This document shows positions 17,397 through 26,552 of a stretch of DNA of 54,379 nucleotides, one piece after another (within the stretch, counting starts at the first letter, position 1; each line of letters begins with the position of its first letter). The position numbers and the translations under genes were made by a program. Location of the stretch: assembly GCA_017631255.1 (NCBI GenBank), contig JAGBTP010000027.1:1-54379 (forward strand), given 5' to 3'. The notes under the pieces were generated by a model, which saw only the letters and a list, made by a program, of their open reading frames with translations, ran no database searches and was not told the DNA's origin. This stretch comes from Alistipes sp. (GTDB lineage: Bacteria; Bacteroidota; Bacteroidia; Bacteroidales; Rikenellaceae).

Positions 17397-18629
17397 ATGA
17401 AAGAGGCTATTGCAATTCTCACAGGTGGCGGTCCTGCGCCAGGTATGAACACCGTTGTTGGCTCTGTTGCCAAGACCTTCCTTGCTAAGGGTTATCGCGT
17501 TATCGGCCTTCACTACGGCTACTCGGGTCTTTTCAACCCTAACCCACGCTACGAGGACCTCGATATGTTCCGCGTAGACTACATCTTCAACCAGGGTGGT
17601 TCGTACCTCACTATGAGCCGCTTCAAGCCATCGGAGGAGGACTTCGAAAAGAACTTCAACCTCGACTTCTTCAAGGCTAACAACATCAAGCTCCTCGTTA
17701 CCGTTGGTGGCGACGACACAGCCTCTACGGCTAACCGCATCGCTAAGTTCCTCGAGGCAAAGCAGTATCCTATCGCAAACATCCATGTGCCTAAGACCAT
17801 CGACAACGACCTCCCATTGCCAGCAGGTATGCCTACCTTCGGTTACCAGTCGGCTAAGAACGCAGGTTCGGTTATCGGTCGTGCGGTGTACAACGACGCC
17901 CGCACATCGGCTAACTGGTTCGTGGTAGCAGCTATGGGTCGCTCAGCAGGTCACCTTGCGTTCGGTATCGCATCGGCTTGCCACTACCCTATGATCATCA
18001 TCCCTGAGATGTTCAACAAGACCAAGATTACCATCGACAAGATTATCAACCTCATCATCTCGGCTATCGTTAAGCGTAAGATTATGAATATGGACTATGG
18101 CGTAGCGATGGTATCGGAGGGTGTATTCCACGCACTCGACAAGGAGGAGATTCTCAAGTCAGGCATCCAGTTCTCATACGACGACCACGGCCACCCAGAG
18201 CTCGGTAAGGTCTCAAAGGCTGAGATGTTCAACACCCTCCTTGAGAAGCGTTGCAAGGCTCTCAACATCAAGGTTAAGTCACGCCCTGTGGAGATTGGCT
18301 ACGAGGTACGCTGCCAGACTCCTTGCGCCTTCGATCTTGTTTACTGCTCGCAGCTCGGTATGGGTGTCTACAAACTCTTCTCTGAGGGTAAGACCGGCTG
18401 TATGGTTTACATCAGCCAGGAGGGTTATGTATCGCCTCTCTACCTCAGAGATTTGCAGGATCCTGATACAGGCAAGATTCCACCACGCTTGGTTGACATC
18501 AACGCCGACAAGATTCACCAGGTTATCGACAACCTTATGCACTACATCACTCCTGCGGACTACGAGGCTGCTAAGGCATACCTTGAGAACCCTGAGGAGT
18601 ACGATTTCCGTAAGATTCTCAACTGGTAA
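17397..18629 (+). CDS. pfp: Pyrophosphate-dependent 6-phosphofructokinase
   Basis: This 410-aa protein catalyses phosphorylation of fructose 6-phosphate in glycolysis, using pyrophosphate and reversibly. The N-terminus has the glycine loop (LTGGGPAPGMN, residues 9-19). GGDDT (104-108) carries the Asp that in this family replaces the ATP-enzyme's Gly and blocks ATP. PKTIDND (132-138) carries the Lys characteristic of PPi enzymes and the catalytic Asp. MGR and a later KMRPVEIGYEVR-like sugar-phosphate segment are also present. The length suits the 400-aa PPi-PFK group found in Bacteroidales. It is a single-gene transcript with its own promoter box and terminator. Confidence in PPi rather than ATP use is high from the two residues. 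Confidence 0.92.
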   Translation: MKEAIAILTGGGPAPGMNTVVGSVAKTFLAKGYRVIGLHYGYSGLFNPNPRYEDLDMFRVDYIFNQGGSYLTMSRFKPSEEDFEKNFNLDFFKANNIKLLVTVGGDDTASTANRIAKFLEAKQYPIANIHVPKTIDNDLPLPAGMPTFGYQSAKNAGSVIGRAVYNDARTSANWFVVAAMGRSAGHLAFGIASACHYPMIIIPEMFNKTKITIDKIINLIISAIVKRKIMNMDYGVAMVSEGVFHALDKEEILKSGIQFSYDDHGHPELGKVSKAEMFNTLLEKRCKALNIKVKSRPVEIGYEVRCQTPCAFDLVYCSQLGMGVYKLFSEGKTGCMVYISQEGYVSPLYLRDLQDPDTGKIPPRLVDINADKIHQVIDNLMHYITPADYEAAKAYLENPEEYDFRKILNW

Positions 18630-18658
18630 TCGCCCTCGATCTACGAAGGTTATACCAC

Positions 18659-18690
18659 AGAGCTGCTCGTCCGACGGGCAGCTCTTTTTT
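18659..18690 (+). terminator. Terminator of pfp
   Basis: GAGCTGCTCG and CGGGCAGCTC form a 10-bp stem (one G-U) with a short loop and are followed by six Ts, 30 bases after the pfp stop. Confidence 0.88.
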
Positions 18691-18794
18691 ATTAGGGCGC
18701 ATTTTGTTAGGGCGCAGTATATCCAACTATCTCGACATAAGCTCGCCCCTAAGACCTAAAAAGAGTAACACGGCGCGTAATAATCGGGGAATTA

Positions 18795-18826
18795 TTTGGC
18801 AGATTAATTTTTATTTCGTATCTTTG
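18795..18826 (+). promoter_or_regulatory. Promoter of the GrpE-like/Hsp70 cassette
   Basis: TTTG at 18795-18798 and TATCTTTG at 18819-18826 are separated by 20 bases, a consensus Bacteroidales promoter. The leader to the ATG at 18913 is about 80 bases. A direct repeat TTAGGGCGCA (15-bp period) lies just downstream of the pfp terminator. Confidence 0.7.
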
Positions 18827-18912
18827 TATGACTCTGTATATCTACGGGATTCAGAGTCGTTCCCCACATACGAGAGACAGCTTGTAAGCCAAACCTAAAG
18901 CATCAAGCGACT

Positions 18913-19791
18913 ATGAAAACAAACTTAATTGAACAGATTATGGGAATCTTCACTAACAATGGTGGCGCCGATCAGGCATTGGAGACTATCAGGGCTGAGA
19001 TTGAGACTAAGGATAGAGAGATCGACGACCTTAAGCAGAAGTTGGCTTTGCGCGACGAACAGATTGCACAGCTAATGGCTACGAACCCTACGGCGGCAGA
19101 GACACCCGCAGAGGCACCTCAGGCAGCTACCGAGGAGCAGGGCGAGGCTAAGGCAGAGACACCAAAGTGCGAGGTTACATTCCCCGATTATGCACCTTCG
19201 TTCGAGGCGCTGATGGTGCTTCTCAACGAGCTCAAGGCACAGAACGAGACTCTCAAGGAGAAGCTGGGATACTGCGAGGCTAACGACGAGAGGTTGCGAG
19301 ACATCGTTAAGGAGCTACACAAGGAGATGGCCAGCAACAAGATTGATGTTAGCAAGCTCACCAAGCCATACCTCTCAGCTATGATGGACCTCCACTACCG
19401 CTTCTACGGCACCTTTGCACACTTCGATGCGCTGGACAACAGCGAGCAGGACTTTGCCAAGTTATACGGCGACCTTATGCGCGAGTTCAAGAACGCCATC
19501 ACCGCAATCAGCGACCGCATATACAACGACTTCGGCTACGAGTACTACGAGCCTCAGGTGGGTGACGAGTTCAATCCTAAGGAGCAGCAGGCGATGTCGG
19601 TTGTCGAGACCGAGGATGAGAGTCTTGCTCGTCGCATCGCACAGGTGATGTATGGCGGCTATCGTGACGAGGAGAGTGGTAAGATAATCCGTCAGGCGCG
19701 CATCGCGTGCTACCGCTATGTGACTCCCGTAGAGGCTACGCCAGCACCAGAGGCCGAGGCTGAGGCTGAGGCGGCAGCGATAGAGGAGTAG
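18913..19791 (+). CDS. GrpE-like nucleotide-exchange factor of a non-canonical Hsp70
   Basis: This 292-aa protein has an N-terminal coiled coil (about 20-57), an Ala/Glu/Pro linker (58-88), a long helix (95-142), a helical-bundle region and then a stretch, residues 217-268, that follows the GrpE beta-wing. The landmarks are GDEFNPKEQQAMSVVETED, a short gap, VMYGGYRDEESGKIIRQARI; in E. coli GrpE the same order is LDPNVHQAIAMVES...QKGYTLNGRTIRAAMV. The tail is an Ala/Glu repeat. It is longer than ordinary GrpE (about 200 aa) and lacks a neighbouring dnaJ. The next gene encodes an Hsp70, so nucleotide exchange on that partner is the likely role. The match is by eye but spans 50 residues. The ATG is placed 80 bases downstream of a good promoter. 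Confidence 0.72.
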   Translation: MKTNLIEQIMGIFTNNGGADQALETIRAEIETKDREIDDLKQKLALRDEQIAQLMATNPTAAETPAEAPQAATEEQGEAKAETPKCEVTFPDYAPSFEALMVLLNELKAQNETLKEKLGYCEANDERLRDIVKELHKEMASNKIDVSKLTKPYLSAMMDLHYRFYGTFAHFDALDNSEQDFAKLYGDLMREFKNAITAISDRIYNDFGYEYYEPQVGDEFNPKEQQAMSVVETEDESLARRIAQVMYGGYRDEESGKIIRQARIACYRYVTPVEATPAPEAEAEAEAAAIEE

Positions 19792-19832
19792 CGCTACGAT
19801 ACGCGCGAGATAGTAAGGCGTGAAGTGCGGCG

Positions 19833-19955
19833 GCGACGCAAAAGAACAAGACGGCGCAAAAGAACAAGACGGCGCAAAAGGACAAGACGACGCAAAAGAA
19901 CAAGACGGCGCAAAAGGACAAGACGGCGCAAAAAGGACAAGACGGCGCAAAAAGT
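19833..19955. repeat. 18-bp minisatellite between GrpE-like and Hsp70 genes
   Basis: About 6.7 tandem copies of ACGGCGCAAAAGAACAAG, varying at two positions (GGC/GAC, GAA/GGA). The sixth unit carries one extra A (19 bp). The block starts 41 bases after the GrpE-like stop codon and ends 110 bases before the Hsp70 start. One plus frame would encode DGAKEQ repeats, another RRRKRT repeats; neither has a convincing start, so it is treated as non-coding. Confidence 0.9.
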
Positions 19956-20065
19956 GATGCACGACACGACACAAGTGCGACGACGCGAAGAGATAAAGTG
20001 CTCACGAGGTAAATGAGTGGCGCAAAGAGTAACAGAGATAATTACAAAAATAAAAATATAAGACT

Positions 20066-21655
20066 ATGGCAAACGATAAGAGTAGAGCCGTGTACGGCAT
20101 TGACTTGGGCACAACATACAGCTGTATCGCCCAGGTGAACAAGTTTGACGAGGCAGTGGTGCTTCGTAACTTCGAGGGCGATGCAACAACTCCTTCAGTT
20201 GTTTACTTCGAGTCGGAGTCTAATATGATCGTAGGTAAGGAGGCTAAGAGTATGCTCCCTGTTGAGCCTGAAAAGACCGTATCGTTCATCAAGCGCGAGA
20301 TCGGTAACGACGATGCTTTCGACAAGAGCAAGAACACCACCCCATACCACTGCGACCCTGTGGAGATTTCGGCGCTCATCCTCAAGAAGCTCGTAAAGGA
20401 TGCTAACGACCTTGGCGACAACCCAGAGCCTATCAAGGATGTGGTTATCACCTGCCCTGCATACTTCGGCAACAAGGAGCGCTTGCAGACAAAGCAGGCA
20501 GGCGAGAGTGCAGGCCTCAATGTCCTCGGTATCATCAACGAGCCTACCGCAGCGGCTATCTCATACGGTCTAAAGGTTTCGGAGCGTCGTACCATCCTCG
20601 TATATGACCTCGGTGGCGGTACCTTCGATGTAACCATCATCGTGGTTAACGGCGGTGCTATCAAGGTTATCGCTACGGGCGGTGACCACCACCTTGGCGG
20701 TGTGGATTGGGATACTGAGCTTGCTAAGTATGTGCTCAACACCTTCAACTCACAGAACGGTACATCGTACGACTTCGAGTCGTTGTCGGCAAATGCTAAG
20801 TACGACCTCTTGGTTAACGCTGAGAACTGGAAGAAGAACCTCACAGCACGCCAGACAGCTAAGATTAACTTCTCGTACGAGGGTAAGTCGGTTAACTTCG
20901 ACCTTCCACGCGAGACCTTCTTCGCTATCACCAACGACAAGCTCGAGGAGACCATCGACGAGACTCGCAAGATTATCGACATCGCTAAGCAGAAGGGCTA
21001 CAACACCATCGACGAGATTATCCTCGTGGGCGGTAGCAGCCGTATGCCACAGGTTAAGGAGCGCGTAGAGGCAGAGTTCGGCCTTCCAACACGCCTCACC
21101 GACCCTGATGAGTGCGTTGCCAAGGGTGCCGCTATCTATGCGATGAACGAGGCCTATGCTCAGGCTATCGAGACTTGGCAGAATGGCGGTGGTGACCGTC
21201 CAGCACCAATCGACGGCGATCGTACACGCGTTGTAAATGTAACAAGTAAGACCTATGGTTTGGGTATCGTGGACAACAAGGTCGAGAATATGATCTTTGC
21301 AAACACCTCGCTCCCAACATCATACTCAAGCACCTTCGTCACCATTCGTGACAACCAGAGTGCCGTTATCCTACCTATTTACGAGAGCGATTTTACCGAT
21401 GCGGACAACGAGCGCGTGGTAGAGGATAAGTTCTGTCGCCTGGCTACCGAGGAGATTTCGGAGCTCAAGATTACAGGCAACCACCCTAAGGGCACTGAGA
21501 TTTCGGTAACCTTCAGCATCGACAACGAGGGTATCCTCAGCGTCAACGCTAGTCGTGACACCGATGTTATCGACTTTACGCTTAAGATTGCGGGCGTTAA
21601 GAACGAGGAGGAGCTTCAGGCATCGAAGGACTTTATCGGCAGGGCAAATGTATAG
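20066..21655 (+). CDS. Hsp70-family chaperone lacking the C-terminal lid
   Basis: This 529-aa protein is an Hsp70 by its nucleotide-binding motifs: phosphate-1 IDLGTTYS (12-19), NEPTAAA (158-164), phosphate-2 DLGGGTFD (181-188) and adenosine VGGSSRMP (321-328). A beta-type substrate domain follows (about 390-508) with LPTSYSSTF and NEGILSVNASR. It then stops about 20 residues later, where DnaK has a further 120-residue helical lid. The interdomain linker, normally a DVLLLDV-type hydrophobic stretch, reads RTRVVNVTS. It is therefore not the housekeeping DnaK but a paralogue with an active-looking ATPase and an open substrate site. It lies between a GrpE-like gene and a membrane-protein gene on the same strand, suggesting a dedicated three-part system. 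Confidence 0.9.
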   Translation: MANDKSRAVYGIDLGTTYSCIAQVNKFDEAVVLRNFEGDATTPSVVYFESESNMIVGKEAKSMLPVEPEKTVSFIKREIGNDDAFDKSKNTTPYHCDPVEISALILKKLVKDANDLGDNPEPIKDVVITCPAYFGNKERLQTKQAGESAGLNVLGIINEPTAAAISYGLKVSERRTILVYDLGGGTFDVTIIVVNGGAIKVIATGGDHHLGGVDWDTELAKYVLNTFNSQNGTSYDFESLSANAKYDLLVNAENWKKNLTARQTAKINFSYEGKSVNFDLPRETFFAITNDKLEETIDETRKIIDIAKQKGYNTIDEIILVGGSSRMPQVKERVEAEFGLPTRLTDPDECVAKGAAIYAMNEAYAQAIETWQNGGGDRPAPIDGDRTRVVNVTSKTYGLGIVDNKVENMIFANTSLPTSYSSTFVTIRDNQSAVILPIYESDFTDADNERVVEDKFCRLATEEISELKITGNHPKGTEISVTFSIDNEGILSVNASRDTDVIDFTLKIAGVKNEEELQASKDFIGRANV

Positions 21656-21687
21656 TCTCACCCGTAAGTTGTAACAGCTTCATAAAT

Positions 21688-21720
21688 GGGGTTGTGTCAT
21701 TCGTGGCACAACCTCATTTT
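21688..21720 (+). terminator. Weak terminator or attenuator after the Hsp70 gene
   Basis: GGGGTTGTG and CACAACCTC form a 9-bp stem (one G-U), loop TCATTCGTGG, followed by only ATTTTA. It ends 25 bases before the next ATG. The short T-run suggests partial termination, so the downstream gene can be co-transcribed at a lower level. Confidence 0.5.
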
Positions 21721-21745
21721 ACCCTTTATACTGAAAGATATATCG

Positions 21746-23887
21746 ATGGACAAAACACTACTAAACCAAAAGATCTCCGATTGGAAAAAGGCGTGTGAAT
21801 TCTTCTCCCAGCGCGATGTACAGCAGAAGCTATCGAACGAGGAGAGGGACGCCGTACTGTTTCTGATGGAGTATTGGAAGCGATACGAATTCGACAAGGC
21901 GGCCTGCGACGAGCGAATTAGCTTGCTCAAGCGTTGCGATAAGCTACACTCTGCCGACCTGAAGATCATCGAGATGAGCAAGAGCCTCAGAGGCGCTGCG
22001 GCGATGTTCTACACTCAGGACGCCATCACCTTCAACGAGTTCCGTATAGCTATGGGCCACAAGCCCACAACCACCCCCACAACGCAGCAGAATACCACTC
22101 CGCACCACGATGAGGCTATGATGCTCATCAATGTCGAGAAGTGGATCAAGGCATACCAATTCCTCAAGCGTGAGGATATCATCGCTCTGCTCGACACATC
22201 GGAGTTTTCGGCGATAGAGATTCTCGGTGATATGTGGCGACGCCCTAAGTACTCGCCCGATATGAAGAGCGAGGCGGAGGAGTTGACCAAGGTGCTCGTG
22301 GCATCGCATAAGCTACACTCGGCAAATCGTGAGATTATCGAGCATAGCAAGAATGTCGTTGCCGTAGCGCGTAAGATTTACGAGAACGAGAAGGCCTTTA
22401 GCAGCTTCAAGACGGCAATTACCAAGTACATCAAGGAGCATAAGCCACCGCAGCGCGAGACACCTACGCACACCCCAACACCTCGTAAGACACCAACACC
22501 TCGTAACAACAACGAGCCGCTCATCATCGGCGATGTAGTATGGGGCAATGGCGACAAGCAGGGTAATCCTAAGGGTAGCTTTGGCAAGGTTCTCTACACC
22601 AACACCTACTACATCCAGCCTCGCATTATCGTGACGAGCAACTACCACGGTAGTGAGGAGATAGAGGTCATCCTGCGCTACTCCGACGGTAATAGCGACA
22701 CCTATACCTCCGATGTCGACTTCCACGGCAAGGGCGACTACACCCTCTCTGGCTGGGGCAGCGAGAGCGGTATGGCATACAGTCAGTACACCTACATCGA
22801 CTACACCTTCCGCTGCAAGGGCAAGACCATCTGGTCAGGTAGGCTGAACATCAAGCGTGACCCAAACCAACCGACATCGCCTACTATCTCTGCGGTGCAG
22901 TTCGCAGCGGTGGACAAGGAGAGCAACATCATCGTCGACTACGGCAGAGCACTACCTACTGGTATTCAGTACCTTAAGCCAAGAATCACCATCTCTAACG
23001 ATTTCTATGGCAAGATTAAGTTGGAGCTTTTGTTCGAGTATTCTTACAAGCAGTCGGAGAGCTTCACTACCGAGGTAAATGTCACAGGTAACGGCACATA
23101 TACCCTTCCTGGCTGGGGCAACGAGAACGGTACGGCATACGCCAATCCTCAGACCGTGAAGGTTAGCTTCCTCCACGAGGGACGACGCCTCCGCACCGAG
23201 ACCGTACATATCGGTGGCGGCGATACGAGGGCACCTCGTCGTGATACGCCTCGCTACGATAACCCTCGCCGCACATCTACAAGCAGCGAGTCGGGCTGGC
23301 AGCGCTTCAACGACAAGATTGAGAGCATTGGCGAATGGCTCGAGGATAATACCGATACCGTGAGCGCGATAATCACGGGTATCATCTGCCTTATCTGGGT
23401 GCTTGCAATCATTGTTTCGTGGGTGCAGGAGGGCTTCTGGGTAGCACTCCTTACGGGCGTCATCGGAGCCTTCATTGGCGGTATCGCCATCTGGGCAGCA
23501 AGTATAGTCACCGCCATTGCGGTATGGGTGCTCCGCTTCGTATTCCTCAATGCCTGGACATTCCTTATCGCCCTGGCAATAGTTATCGGCACCACGGTAC
23601 TTCCAGCTGCCGTTGCAATCCTTGATAGCGGCTATGACTATGACTACTACAATCAGGTTGTAGAGCAGGAGTTTATCGAGCCAGAAACAACAACCTATGT
23701 CTGCACCGCAAACTCGCTTAACATCCGTTCTTCAGCAAACAACAACGCCCCTCTCCTCGGCTCGTTGAAGAAGAACGATAGAATCGAGGTTATTGATACG
23801 GAGAACGGCTTTGCACACTTTATATACCTTGGCAACGACGCATATGTTAGTCTTAACTATGTGGTAAAACTTACAGACAAGTACTAA
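21746..23887 (+). CDS. Membrane protein with duplicated helical and beta modules and SH3b-like C-terminus
   Basis: Not a recognised family. The 713-aa protein is modular. Two copies of a helical unit (about 10-104 and 128-230) share a KLHSA...IIE.SK core (67-78 and 189-201). A Thr/Pro-rich linker (232-255) follows. Two beta-rich units (about 285-370 and 405-490) share PRI..., a GNG/GKG-Y-TL turn and GWG(S/N)E.G.AY (336-345 and 456-465). An Arg-rich linker leads to hydrophobic helices at about 541-559, 564-595 and 600-626, and the last 65 residues (LNIRSSANNNAPLLGSL...) look like a bacterial SH3b domain. No J-domain HPD motif is present. The start at 21746 was chosen because the in-frame codons upstream lie in the hairpin. 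It probably recruits the neighbouring Hsp70 to the membrane (inference). Confidence 0.75.
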   Translation: MDKTLLNQKISDWKKACEFFSQRDVQQKLSNEERDAVLFLMEYWKRYEFDKAACDERISLLKRCDKLHSADLKIIEMSKSLRGAAAMFYTQDAITFNEFRIAMGHKPTTTPTTQQNTTPHHDEAMMLINVEKWIKAYQFLKREDIIALLDTSEFSAIEILGDMWRRPKYSPDMKSEAEELTKVLVASHKLHSANREIIEHSKNVVAVARKIYENEKAFSSFKTAITKYIKEHKPPQRETPTHTPTPRKTPTPRNNNEPLIIGDVVWGNGDKQGNPKGSFGKVLYTNTYYIQPRIIVTSNYHGSEEIEVILRYSDGNSDTYTSDVDFHGKGDYTLSGWGSESGMAYSQYTYIDYTFRCKGKTIWSGRLNIKRDPNQPTSPTISAVQFAAVDKESNIIVDYGRALPTGIQYLKPRITISNDFYGKIKLELLFEYSYKQSESFTTEVNVTGNGTYTLPGWGNENGTAYANPQTVKVSFLHEGRRLRTETVHIGGGDTRAPRRDTPRYDNPRRTSTSSESGWQRFNDKIESIGEWLEDNTDTVSAIITGIICLIWVLAIIVSWVQEGFWVALLTGVIGAFIGGIAIWAASIVTAIAVWVLRFVFLNAWTFLIALAIVIGTTVLPAAVAILDSGYDYDYYNQVVEQEFIEPETTTYVCTANSLNIRSSANNNAPLLGSLKKNDRIEVIDTENGFAHFIYLGNDAYVSLNYVVKLTDKY

Positions 23888-23906
23888 GCAACGCCCAATT
23901 CTAAAG

Positions 23907-23938
23907 AAATAGGCTATCCTACTTGGATAGCCTATTTT
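23907..23938. terminator. Shared bidirectional terminator, Hsp70 cassette and clpB
   Basis: AAATAGGCTATCC and GGATAGCCTATTT form a 13-bp perfect stem with a 5-base loop, T-rich on both strands. It lies 20 bases after one stop codon and 24 bases after the other. Confidence 0.88.
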
Positions 23939-23960
23939 ATTGTGTACAAACACTTTGACT

Positions 23961-26552
23961 TTAGTTCGCAAACGAGAGCTGCGTGCCGTCGCTATCGACC
24001 GTAATAGCACGAGACCTGTCGACCTCGCCCGCAAGGATTAGCTTCGAAAGCCTGTTTACCACCTCACGCTGAATGGTGCGCTTGATAGGTCGTGCACCGT
24101 AGAGCGGGTCGAAGCCAACATCGGCAATATGGCTGCGTGCAGCAGAGGTGTAGACAAACTCTATACCATTGGTGCGGAGCATACGCGCCACCTCGCGCAG
24201 CTGAATATCGACGATATGCTCAATCTGCTTATGGCTGAGCGGCTCGAACATCACAATCTCGTCAATGCGGTTGAGGAACTCTGGCTTGAGGTGGCTCTTC
24301 AACAGCTCAATGACATCGCTCTTCGTGCGCTCGAGAGTGTCGGCATCAACGGCATCGCCTGCCGTGGCAAGGCGCTCCGAGATGATGTTTGAGCCCATAT
24401 TCGAGGTCATAATTACAATGGTATTCCTAAAGTCGACGGTACGACCCTTGTTGTCGGTAAGCCTGCCATCATCAAGCAGTTGCAGGAGAATATTAAAAAC
24501 ATCGGGATGCGCCTTCTCTATCTCATCGAGCAGCACCACGCTATACGGCTTACGGCGCACCGCCTCTGTAAGCTGACCGCCCTCATCGTAGCCCACATAT
24601 CCAGGAGGCGCACCCACGAGGCGCGATACGGAGTGTCGCTCCTGATACTCCGACATATCTATGCGCGTGAGCATCTGGTCGTCATTGAAGAGGAACTCGG
24701 CAAGGGCCTTAGCAAGCTCCGTCTTACCCACACCCGTGCTGCCAAGGAAGATGAACGAGCCGATGGGTCTGTGCATATCCGAGAGGCCCGCACGCGAGCG
24801 GCGCACAGCATCCGAGATAGCCTCGATAGCCTCATCCTGACCCACCACGCGCTTATGTAATTCAGCCTCCATATTTAGCAATTTTGTGCGCTCCGACTCG
24901 AGCATACGCTTTACGGGAATACCCGTCCAGCGCGACACCACCTCGGCAATGTCATCTGCCGACACCTCCTCCTTAATCATCGCAGTATCAGCCGTTAAGC
25001 GCAACTCATCTTCGAGCGTTGCAACGCGCCTCTCAAGCTCCACGATAGTGCCATAGCGCAGCTCCGCTACCCTACCGTAGTCACCCACACGCTCCGCCTG
25101 CTGAGCCTCAATCTTGGCGCGTTCGATGCCATCCTTGGCACTCTGCAACTCCTGCAACCTATCGCGCTCCGACTGCCACTTTGCCCTCAGCGCCGCACAC
25201 TCAGCCTTCTGCTCCTCAATCTCGCCATCAAGTCGCTCGATGCGCTCCCTATCACCTTCACGGCGTATCGCCTCACGCTCAATCTCAAGCTGGCGGATGC
25301 GGCGGTCGAGCTGGTCAATCTCCTCGGGCACCGAGTTCATCTCAAGGCGCAAGCGCGATGCCGCCTCGTCGACAAGGTCGATAGCCTTATCAGGGAGGAA
25401 GCGCTCCGTTATATAGCGGTGCGAGAGCTCAACAGACGCCACGATAGCCTCGTCCTTGATACGCACACGGTGGTGACCCTCGTAACGCTCCTTGAGGCCA
25501 CGCATAATGGAGATGGCATCCTCCATCGAGGGCTCGTCCACGAGTACCTTCTGGAAGCGGCGCTCAAGGGCCTTATCCTTCTCAAAATACTTCTGGTACT
25601 CGTCGAGCGTCGTAGCACCAATAGTGCGCAGCTCACCACGCGCAAGGGCAGGCTTGAGGATATTGGCGGCATCCATCGCACCGTCACTCTTACCCGCACC
25701 CACAAGCGTGTGAATCTCATCGATGAAGAGCAACACCTCGCCCTCGGCAGAGACAACCTCCTTAACCACAGCCTTGAGGCGCTCCTCGAACTCACCCTTA
25801 TACTTAGCACCCGCAATGAGTGCACCCATATCGAGCGAGTAGACGATCTTATTCTTCAGGTTCTCAGGCACATCGCCGTCGACAATACGCTGCGCGATGC
25901 CCTCAGCAATGGCAGTCTTACCAACGCCCGCCTCACCCACGAGGATAGGGTTATTCTTGGTGCGGCGCGAAAGAATCTGCAACACGCGTCGAATCTCCTC
26001 ATCTCGACCAATAACGGGGTCAAGACGCCCCGTACGCGCACCCTCGTTGAGGTTGATGGCGTACTTGCCAAGTGCGTCGAACTCCATAGTTTCGGTCTGC
26101 GAACCGATGGTGGCACCCTTGCGAAACTCCTTGATTGCAGCAATGAGGTCGTCGTAAGTGACGCTGTTGCGCTTAAGGATATCGAGCACCACACCTCGCT
26201 CCTTAGCCATAGCCGCCACGATATGCTCCACCGAGGCATATCTATCGGAGAACAAGGCGCTTATATCCACCGCGCGCTGTATGAGCGAGGAGCTCTCACG
26301 CGAGAAGAAGATATTGTCGTCGACACCCTCCACCCTCGGAAGGCGCTCCATAGCCTCGCTCAGCTCACGACGCATGGTTACGATATTTGCACCCACGCGA
26401 CTAAGGAGATAGCTCGCCAACGAGTCGTCGTCGGCGATGGCAGCCGCCAAGATGTGCTGAGGCTCGAGAGCCTGCTGTCGGCGGCTCTTTGCCAAGGTCA
26501 TTGCACCCTGCAACAACTCTTGTGCTTTGATTGTTAGTGTGTTGATATTCAT
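23961..26552 (-). CDS. clpB: ClpB disaggregase
   Basis: This 863-aa AAA+ hexameric unfoldase pulls polypeptides out of aggregates together with DnaK. The N-terminal Clp_N repeats (about 1-145) are present. The first AAA domain has Walker A GEAGVGKT (206-213) and [15 protein letters not shown] coiled-coil middle domain follows (about 395-530, rich in [11 protein letters not shown] and Arg/Glu heptads), then the second AAA domain with [31 protein letters not shown] and TSNMGS. The presence of the middle domain and absence of a ClpP loop distinguish ClpB from ClpA/C. The length is normal. It converges with the GrpE-like/Hsp70 cassette, which is suggestive but also compatible with chance, since ClpB normally serves the housekeeping DnaK. 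Confidence 0.96.

Follow-up and report, generated by a model that had tools for sequence, protein, structure and literature searches.

Hsp70 chaperones are generally held to need a J-protein with a histidine-proline-aspartate (HPD) motif; how, then, would an Hsp70 work that has lost the residues on which such a protein docks? This question is raised by a 54,379-nucleotide contig of an Alistipes species (JAGBTP010000027.1), which we analyzed over its full length and call the window, and which is contig 30 of a 1.82-Mb genome that is 86% complete. Its plus strand carries, in a row, genes for a 292-residue GrpE-family protein, a 529-residue Hsp70 and a 713-residue membrane protein with an SH3b domain, hereafter called the cassette (Table 1). 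An earlier note, made from the letters of this DNA, had described a GrpE-like protein, a lidless Hsp70 and a membrane protein with duplicated modules lying together without a J-protein. The row is real, since Pfam recognizes all three proteins, and none of the three gives a J-domain match in Pfam.

The Hsp70 matches PF00012 with 348.9 bits, and it has both the nucleotide-binding domain (NBD) with its ATPase residues and the beta part of the substrate-binding domain that define the family. The match stops at profile position 501 of 599 and the protein therefore has no lid; neither the alpha-helical lid nor the VLLLD linker of full-length DnaK was found, the linker of the window's protein reading TRVVN. 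According to passages of three papers on DnaK, R167 pairs with the HPD aspartate, the linker residue D393 and D481 (PMC7289447), Q378 is also contacted by the HPD aspartate, P419 by the HPD proline and D477 by a J-domain lysine (PMC8215388), and L391 is contacted by the HPD histidine, while DnaJ D35N rescues DnaK R167A (PMC13012618). At the positions of R167, Q378, D393 and D477, the window's Hsp70 has G155, Y358, N391 and S484. The same pattern was found throughout the 14 cassettes, that is, the window's and those of 13 further loci: R167 is replaced by G or A, Q378 by Y or F, D393 by N and D477 by S or A, so that none of the four J-docking residues is retained in any of them. The ATPase residues D8, K70, E171 and T199 are retained in all 14, as is the equivalent of P419, and the VLLL linker motif reads T[RT][VI][VI] in every cassette, with L391 merely changed to V or I. 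All these residues are retained by the canonical DnaKs in the same alignment (6/6), and 56 canonical-like loci kept R167 in 56 cases, D393 in 53 (3 not called), D477 in 54 (one S, one not called) and Q378 in 51 (2 other residues, 3 not called). Because the J-contact residues are replaced in 14/14 cassettes, an HPD J-protein is unlikely to be the trigger of this Hsp70, and the earlier suggestion that no ordinary J-protein is at work gains support from the chaperone itself. In our reading of the alignments, the cassette Hsp70 would be competent as an ATPase and, at the same time, insulated from the DnaJ of the cell. All 14 also lack the six-residue GrpE-signature loop (DnaK 290-295). A review passage takes the loss of this signature in HscA and HscC as a sign of no GrpE binding (PMC8215388), and the cassette Hsp70 is perhaps insulated from the canonical GrpE too.

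Whether the first gene encodes an unrelated coiled coil, a doubt that the earlier note had raised, was settled by profile searches in favor of GrpE. The window's protein scores 27.6 bits against the Pfam GrpE cut-off of 25.8, 13 of the 14 cassette members, the window's included, match this family at E ≤ 1e-3, and a nine-row profile of the GrpE-like proteins ranks GrpE structures first in the PDB (4ani, E 1.2e-5; 1dkg, 1.6e-4). At the level of profiles, the GrpE assignment is firm.

The third protein starts with two helical N-terminal modules (N-modules) of about 100 residues, which match each other (hhalign 99.7%, 30% identity) and so confirm the duplication that the earlier note had seen. They are the best conserved part of the protein, with a mean identity of 61.5% against 43-51% for the other parts, and of the three proteins it is the Hsp70 that varies least (85.7%); these means cover 66 pairs and were computed without L118. 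The two beta modules at residues 258-490 have no Pfam match, hydropathy of the window's protein at residues 535-630 shows one separate peak and one broad region, and the C-terminal domain matches SH3_3 with 29.4 bits (cut-off 27). We took the conserved start MDK at 21746 as the beginning of the protein; the mechanical start of the open reading frame (ORF), at 21686, runs through a hairpin. Domains were scanned in 14 third-protein rows (13 third proteins and a shorter second copy from L115): SH3_3 was found in 13, FKBP in 6, and a thioredoxin-like AhpC/TSA domain and TonB_C in one each (L112, which also has FKBP, and L108, respectively). FKBP was seen in five loci and assigned by elimination in the sixth (L114), and wherever these extra domains were seen one by one they stand behind SH3b. 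Apart from SH3_3 and, in some rows, FKBP, redoxin/thioredoxin or TonB_C, only SH3b_T was found in these third proteins. In Gram-negative bacteria, TonB_C and many FKBP and thioredoxin-like domains work in the periplasm. Because such domains lie at the C-terminus, and because in the third protein of L118 a stretch of arginines comes before the only span, the sequences point to a topology with the N-terminus inside and SH3b outside. At L115 (also L061; genome G173) the third gene is present twice: a second copy of 599 residues, placed after hsp70 and before the full one, has one N-module and more beta modules, and is without the membrane part or SH3b.

The half of the third protein that comprises the beta modules, the membrane part and SH3b has a homologue in another protein of the genus, one that carries a Ser/Thr kinase at its N-terminus. 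At the one locus scanned with Pfam (L065), the kinase-SH3b gene adjoins genes for a vWA protein, a PP2C phosphatase and a second kinase-like protein, and ORFs of similar length and match to this kinase type occur in five further loci (L066-L070). Since this half is common to both kinds of protein, one envelope-facing half is coupled to two different outputs, a kinase or an Hsp70.

The three genes keep together. When we scanned the contigs of a one-genome-per-species collection with the N-modules, 84 pattern matches were obtained, 13 of which encode relatives; this number is a lower bound because the patterns were exact peptides. In 13/13 loci, the GrpE-like gene and then hsp70 lie upstream of the third gene in the same order, which answers the earlier note's call for a check of co-occurrence in fixed order. 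The Hsp70 of L113 was hidden by a longer antisense ORF and was read by hand; at L117 the contig end cuts the third gene, which was left out of the whole-protein SH3b alignments, and the shorter copy of L115 was kept as an extra row in alignments A5 and A6. Judging from sample names, 11 of the 13 relatives come from ruminant hindgut sites. The order is kept also at one of the other two, a locus from a Butyricimonas metagenome-assembled genome, where the Hsp70 is 65% identical and there is a single N-module.

Samples at different taxonomic depth agree with a narrow distribution. Among 151 genomes of the genus, 4, one of them the window's, have a close Hsp70 (≥82% identity), and the full-length SH3b protein was found in exactly these 4; an SH3b-type match was present in 14, the other 10 being partial matches to proteins of different length. 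The GrpE-like protein occurred in 3/150 genomes of the family, one of which (G021) holds a distant GrpE-Hsp70 pair. In the order sample, at least 3/295 genomes, again with the window's own, have a close Hsp70; in this and one further scan, scoring was limited to the leading 5 or 3 candidates of each genome, and some relatives could be missed. The N-modules were found in 1/395 genomes of the phylum Bacteroidota, namely the window's own. Six of the 13 loci come from genomes also met elsewhere in the analysis: L106 (G245), L107 (G140), L109 (G479), L111 (G383), L115 (G173) and L116 (G198). The three-gene module is thus rare, and it is found as a unit.

Its distances do not follow those of the canonical chaperone. 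In five genomes, identity of the canonical DnaK reaches 96-97% inside families and 76-78% across them, whereas the cassette Hsp70 of the same five genomes is 82-88% identical within and between families alike. Its mean identity is 84.1% within Rikenellaceae (10 pairs), 84.1% between Rikenellaceae and Bacteroidaceae (40 pairs) and 88.7% within Bacteroidaceae (28 pairs). Because similarity within and between families is equal for the cassette Hsp70 and unequal for DnaK, the cassette was probably transferred horizontally between gut Bacteroidales, and vertical descent alone would not easily give the observed distances. This claim is drawn from distances and not from the tree: the Hsp70 tree is poorly resolved, and a single Rikenellaceae clade of cassettes is not rejected (approximately unbiased test, p-AU 0.295). 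All three genes are under purifying selection, with ratios of nonsynonymous to synonymous rates (dN/dS) of 0.01-0.13 in four close pairs, in some of which dS exceeds 1; no positive selection was seen in the four pairs with values for all genes, and in two wider pairs dS is saturated for two of the three genes. In the close pair L109/L114, dS is 0.34 for the SH3b gene, 0.68 for hsp70 and 1.43 for the GrpE-like gene, and this difference between the genes suggests recombination inside the cassette. A phage origin was considered and dropped: 132 pattern matches in viral contigs included none that encodes a relative.

Are the N-modules J-domains in disguise? The third protein has no Pfam DnaJ match, and a J-domain with HPD was not found in it. 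Hidden Markov model (HMM) scores of the N-modules against J-domains are no better than those of shuffled sequence, and the motif KLHS[AS]N, tried as a worn HPD, was supported neither by profile comparison nor by these scores. In four distant clusters (L104, L124, L006 and L121), the gene after a lidless hsp70 encodes a J-like protein without HPD: L104 and L124 score 28.2 and 35.2 bits against the Pfam DnaJ cut-off of 27.8, L006 is recognized as J-like by our own profile (E 1.7e-5, hhalign 90.7%), and L121 is J-like by eye, within a set that matches J-domains at 98.5% and with no Pfam DnaJ match at E ≤ 1e-3. The third proteins of L104, L121 and L124 also have tetratricopeptide repeats (TPRs) and, by eye, a C-terminal hydrophobic stretch. 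That of a fifth cluster, L103, was rejected as J-like (hhalign 8.8%, HMM E 0.06). A GrpE gene is present in L006, L103, L121 and L124; none was seen at L104, where the contig starts shortly before hsp70. Of the distant Hsp70s, three (L103, L104 and L124) still have R167 as well as D393, L006 has neither, and L121 has D393 without R167. The equivalent of D477 is lost in all five, and so is the GrpE-signature loop, even in L103, L121 and L124 beside clear GrpE genes. The N-modules may be either J-domains diverged beyond recognition or an unrelated domain in the slot of the J-protein.

How does the cassette compare with known systems? No description of this three-gene set was found in the open-access literature, subscription papers and preprints being outside the scope of the search. 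The earlier statement that no such system had been described holds for the exact set and not for its general plan: according to passages of Kaur et al. 2020 (PMC7159879), neighborhoods of GAP1-N2 GTPases, mainly in actinobacteria and firmicutes, combine Hsp70 and GrpE with an FNIII protein to which DnaJ or TPR is fused, and they also show a parallel kinase/PP2C/vWA theme. As in the cassette, Hsp70, GrpE and a multi-domain third protein are linked there; as in the genus of the cassette, the kinase/PP2C/vWA theme occurs alongside; and some of the GTPases carry SH3 domains beyond membrane spans (PMC7159879, same passages). The cassette differs in that its third protein has no J-domain, TPR or FNIII match. 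No GAP1 or GTPase match over the cut-off was found among 7 neighbors in the window (for ClpB, among the best 25 of 48 families), no search of the whole genome for GAP1-N2 having been made, and 10 proteins sampled from the flanks of four Bacteroidaceae loci, mostly of housekeeping types, include RsgA as the sole GTPase and no mobility gene. By analogy, the cassette looks like a Bacteroidales relative, in design, of the GAP1-N2 theme. Among membrane Hsp70s that have been studied, the nearest is HscC with DjlB and DjlC, which is similar in that, as a passage of a review describes it (PMC8215388), a divergent Hsp70 lacking the GrpE signature and shortened in NBD lobe I is tied to membrane-anchored partners; lobe I is likewise short in the Hsp70s displayed, namely those of four cassettes and the five distant ones. 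However, the partners DjlB and DjlC are J-proteins, and HscC is believed to work without GrpE (PMC8215388), whereas the cassette has a GrpE and no J-domain was found in it, so that the two are set apart by these features. With canonical DnaK/DnaJ/GrpE the cassette shares the Hsp70 ATPase core and GrpE homology, but it is without the lid, a J-protein at the locus, the J-docking residues and the GrpE-signature loop. There is also a likeness to L124, from Rhodococcus (NZ_CP070617), and L121, from Bacteroidota genome G706, both of which have a lidless Hsp70 without the D477 equivalent and the signature loop, a GrpE and a probably membrane-anchored third protein. Unlike in the cassette, that third protein has a J-like domain and TPRs, and the Rhodococcus Hsp70 retains the equivalents of R167, Q378 and D393.

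We propose tentatively, giving it a little less than an even chance, that the cassette is an insulated (orthogonal) Hsp70 module in which the N-modules of the membrane protein replace the J-protein. The helical N-modules would bind the Hsp70 from the cytosolic side and act as its recruiter and trigger at the inner membrane, and the GrpE-like protein would reset the ADP state of the Hsp70. On the other side, in a compartment without ATP, the periplasmic SH3b domain, together with FKBP, thioredoxin-like or TonB_C domains in relatives, would read or act on the cell wall or envelope proteins, and the module would couple a cytosolic ATP-driven switch to the state of the envelope. The part of trigger is one that we infer for the membrane protein. 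In favor of this proposal we count the fixed order in 13/13 loci, the residue replacements beside retained ATPase residues in 14/14 cassettes, the missing GrpE-signature loop, purifying selection, the conservation of the Hsp70 and of the N-modules, the extra domains of periplasmic type, and the distant clusters in which the gene after hsp70 encodes an HPD-less J-like protein with TPRs and a hydrophobic C-terminus. Several observations weigh against it. The N-modules have no detectable J homology (hhalign ≤1.2% against both canonical and HPD-less J-domains). Hydropathy peaks in 13 third proteins are three and separate in 4, one in L118, four in L115 and merged in 7 including the window's, so that the number of spans, and hence the side on which SH3b lies, is not established. 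The partner Hsp70 is without the GrpE-signature loop, and the GrpE-like protein could be no classical exchange factor there. Moreover, a terminator-like hairpin splits hsp70 from the third gene, and a tight operon is not certain. A more specific version, in which the duplicated-module protein is a non-J trigger that drives the lidless Hsp70 and relays a periplasmic signal, from peptidoglycan or protein folding, across the inner membrane, insulated from DnaK and passed between gut Bacteroidales, seems possible but, taken as a whole, doubtful.

The same evidence bears on other explanations. If the N-modules were J-domains without HPD, changed so far that their sequence no longer reveals them, the third protein would be a degenerate true J-protein. 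The HPD-less J-like proteins of L104, L124, L006 and L121 speak for this; the comparisons of the modules with J-domain alignments and with shuffles do not bear it out, and we regard it as unlikely. It is also possible, though somewhat unlikely, that the Hsp70 needs no J-type trigger at all and works as a slow ATP switch or holdase, with the membrane protein merely as anchor or client. Such a chaperone would fit the fact that 14/14 cassettes lack the R167/D393 switch and the VLLL motif, and that the lid is gone, but a dedicated GrpE under purifying selection points to a working nucleotide cycle, and the conservation of the third protein, highest in its N-modules, also speaks against it. Least probable, and by a good way, is that the cell's own DnaJ serves the Hsp70 while the third gene has an unrelated envelope function. 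One DnaJ, canonical and with HPD, was found in the host genome, away from the cassette and adjoining the canonical grpE (C67), and at 86% completeness further J-proteins may be missing from the assembly; on the other hand, R167, Q378, D393 and D477 are replaced in 14/14, though P419 is kept and L391 changed only to V or I, and the gene order is fixed.

A different kind of alternative is that the cassette is a conflict or envelope-stress system, for example against phages, as proposed for the GAP1-N2 neighborhoods. In its favor are the patchy and apparently horizontal distribution, the fusion of the same SH3b half to a Ser/Thr kinase at L065, where vWA, PP2C and kinase-like genes adjoin, and the presence of both the Hsp70/GrpE and the kinase/PP2C/vWA theme in the passages of Kaur et al. 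(PMC7159879). However, PADLOC gave no match for the Hsp70 or the SH3b protein and only weak ones for the coiled-coil part of the GrpE-like protein, no GTPase or toxin match over the cut-off was found among the 7 window neighbors scanned, most of the 10 proteins sampled next to the cassettes of four relatives are of housekeeping type, viral contigs hold no relative, and there is no sign of positive selection. We consider this reading, too, somewhat unlikely.

Of 13 cassettes (L118 was left out), 7 have the full putative promoter pattern in the 250 bp before the first gene, 3 have only its -7 half and 3 have neither; sigma-70-like matches are at chance level (5 against 4.3 expected). The hairpin between hsp70 and the third gene was not flagged by a terminator scan, and no Rfam match was found within 18500-24100. 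Its GGTTGTG...CACAACC arms recur in the same gap of 8/14 cassettes, with a G-U variant in L116, and none were found outside this gap in 161 sequences (951 kb, redundant); a different strong hairpin takes its place in L106 and L108, the gap of L107 and L115 is longer and folds in other ways, and that of L118 is 4 bp. Because the loop length varies, an RNA hairpin or weak terminator fits better than a DNA operator, and less membrane protein than chaperone may be made as a result. The GrpE-Hsp70 gap is 274 bp in the window against 17-64 bp in the 12 other cassettes measured, and an 18-bp tandem repeat (6.4 copies, 92% match) at 19837-19952 fills much of it.

A phosphofructokinase gene (17397-18629) precedes the cassette, as it does in L106, L107 and L115, and a convergent clpB faces its 3' end. 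The earlier note had allowed that the facing clpB may be chance, and it probably is: the adjacency occurs in 2/14 cassettes only (the window and L107), some other contigs ending too early to tell, and clpB linkage was rejected as a conserved feature. The canonical dnaK of the host genome is apparently split over two contig ends (G000:C38:1-1026 and G000:C31:2-460) by an assembly gap. Outside the Bacteroidales, the L124 plasmid of Rhodococcus pseudokoreensis has the Hsp70, the HPD-less J-TPR protein and the GrpE followed by an FtsK/SpoIIIE-type gene. At L063 (G168:C33), five Hsp70-like ORFs lie within about 16.5 kb, adjoining two M48 peptidases and several further proteins without a Pfam match over the cut-off.

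Table 1. Features of the cassette in the window
Feature	Position	Strand	Basis
Bacteroidota-type promoter match (putative), TTTG-N20-TATCTTTG	18795..18826	+	Pattern match
GrpE-family nucleotide exchange factor, 292 aa, divergent, N-terminal coiled coil	18913..19791	+	Pfam, PDB profile
Lidless Hsp70, 529 aa	20066..21655	+	PF00012; E. coli DnaK numbering via alignment to PDB 2kho
16-bp hairpin between hsp70 and third gene, weak terminator-like	21684..21719	+	Fold -22.0 kcal/mol
Membrane protein, 713 aa: two helical N-modules, two beta modules, several spans, SH3b	21746..23887	+	SH3_3, hhalign, hydropathy
N-module 1 (aa 1-104), predicted cytosolic	21746..22057	+	hhalign to module 2
N-module 2 (aa 127-231), predicted cytosolic	22124..22438	+	hhalign to module 1
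Two beta-rich modules (aa 258-490)	22517..23215	+	Beta nature read from sequence
Membrane-spanning region (aa 535-630), about 3 spans	23348..23635	+	Hydropathy
SH3b domain (aa 657-706), predicted periplasmic	23714..23863	+	Pfam
Terminator-like hairpin between third gene and convergent clpB	23906..23938	.	Fold -21.4 kcal/mol

What is new here, and more interesting than the original observation of three adjacent genes, is that the Hsp70 itself bears the mark of J-protein loss: every cassette found combines a retained ATPase core and a GrpE with the loss of four mapped J-docking residues, always next to a membrane protein of one kind. The question whether something other than a J-domain can trigger an Hsp70 becomes directly testable with three soluble pieces, and the cassette hints at an ATP-driven link between the cytosol and the periplasm.

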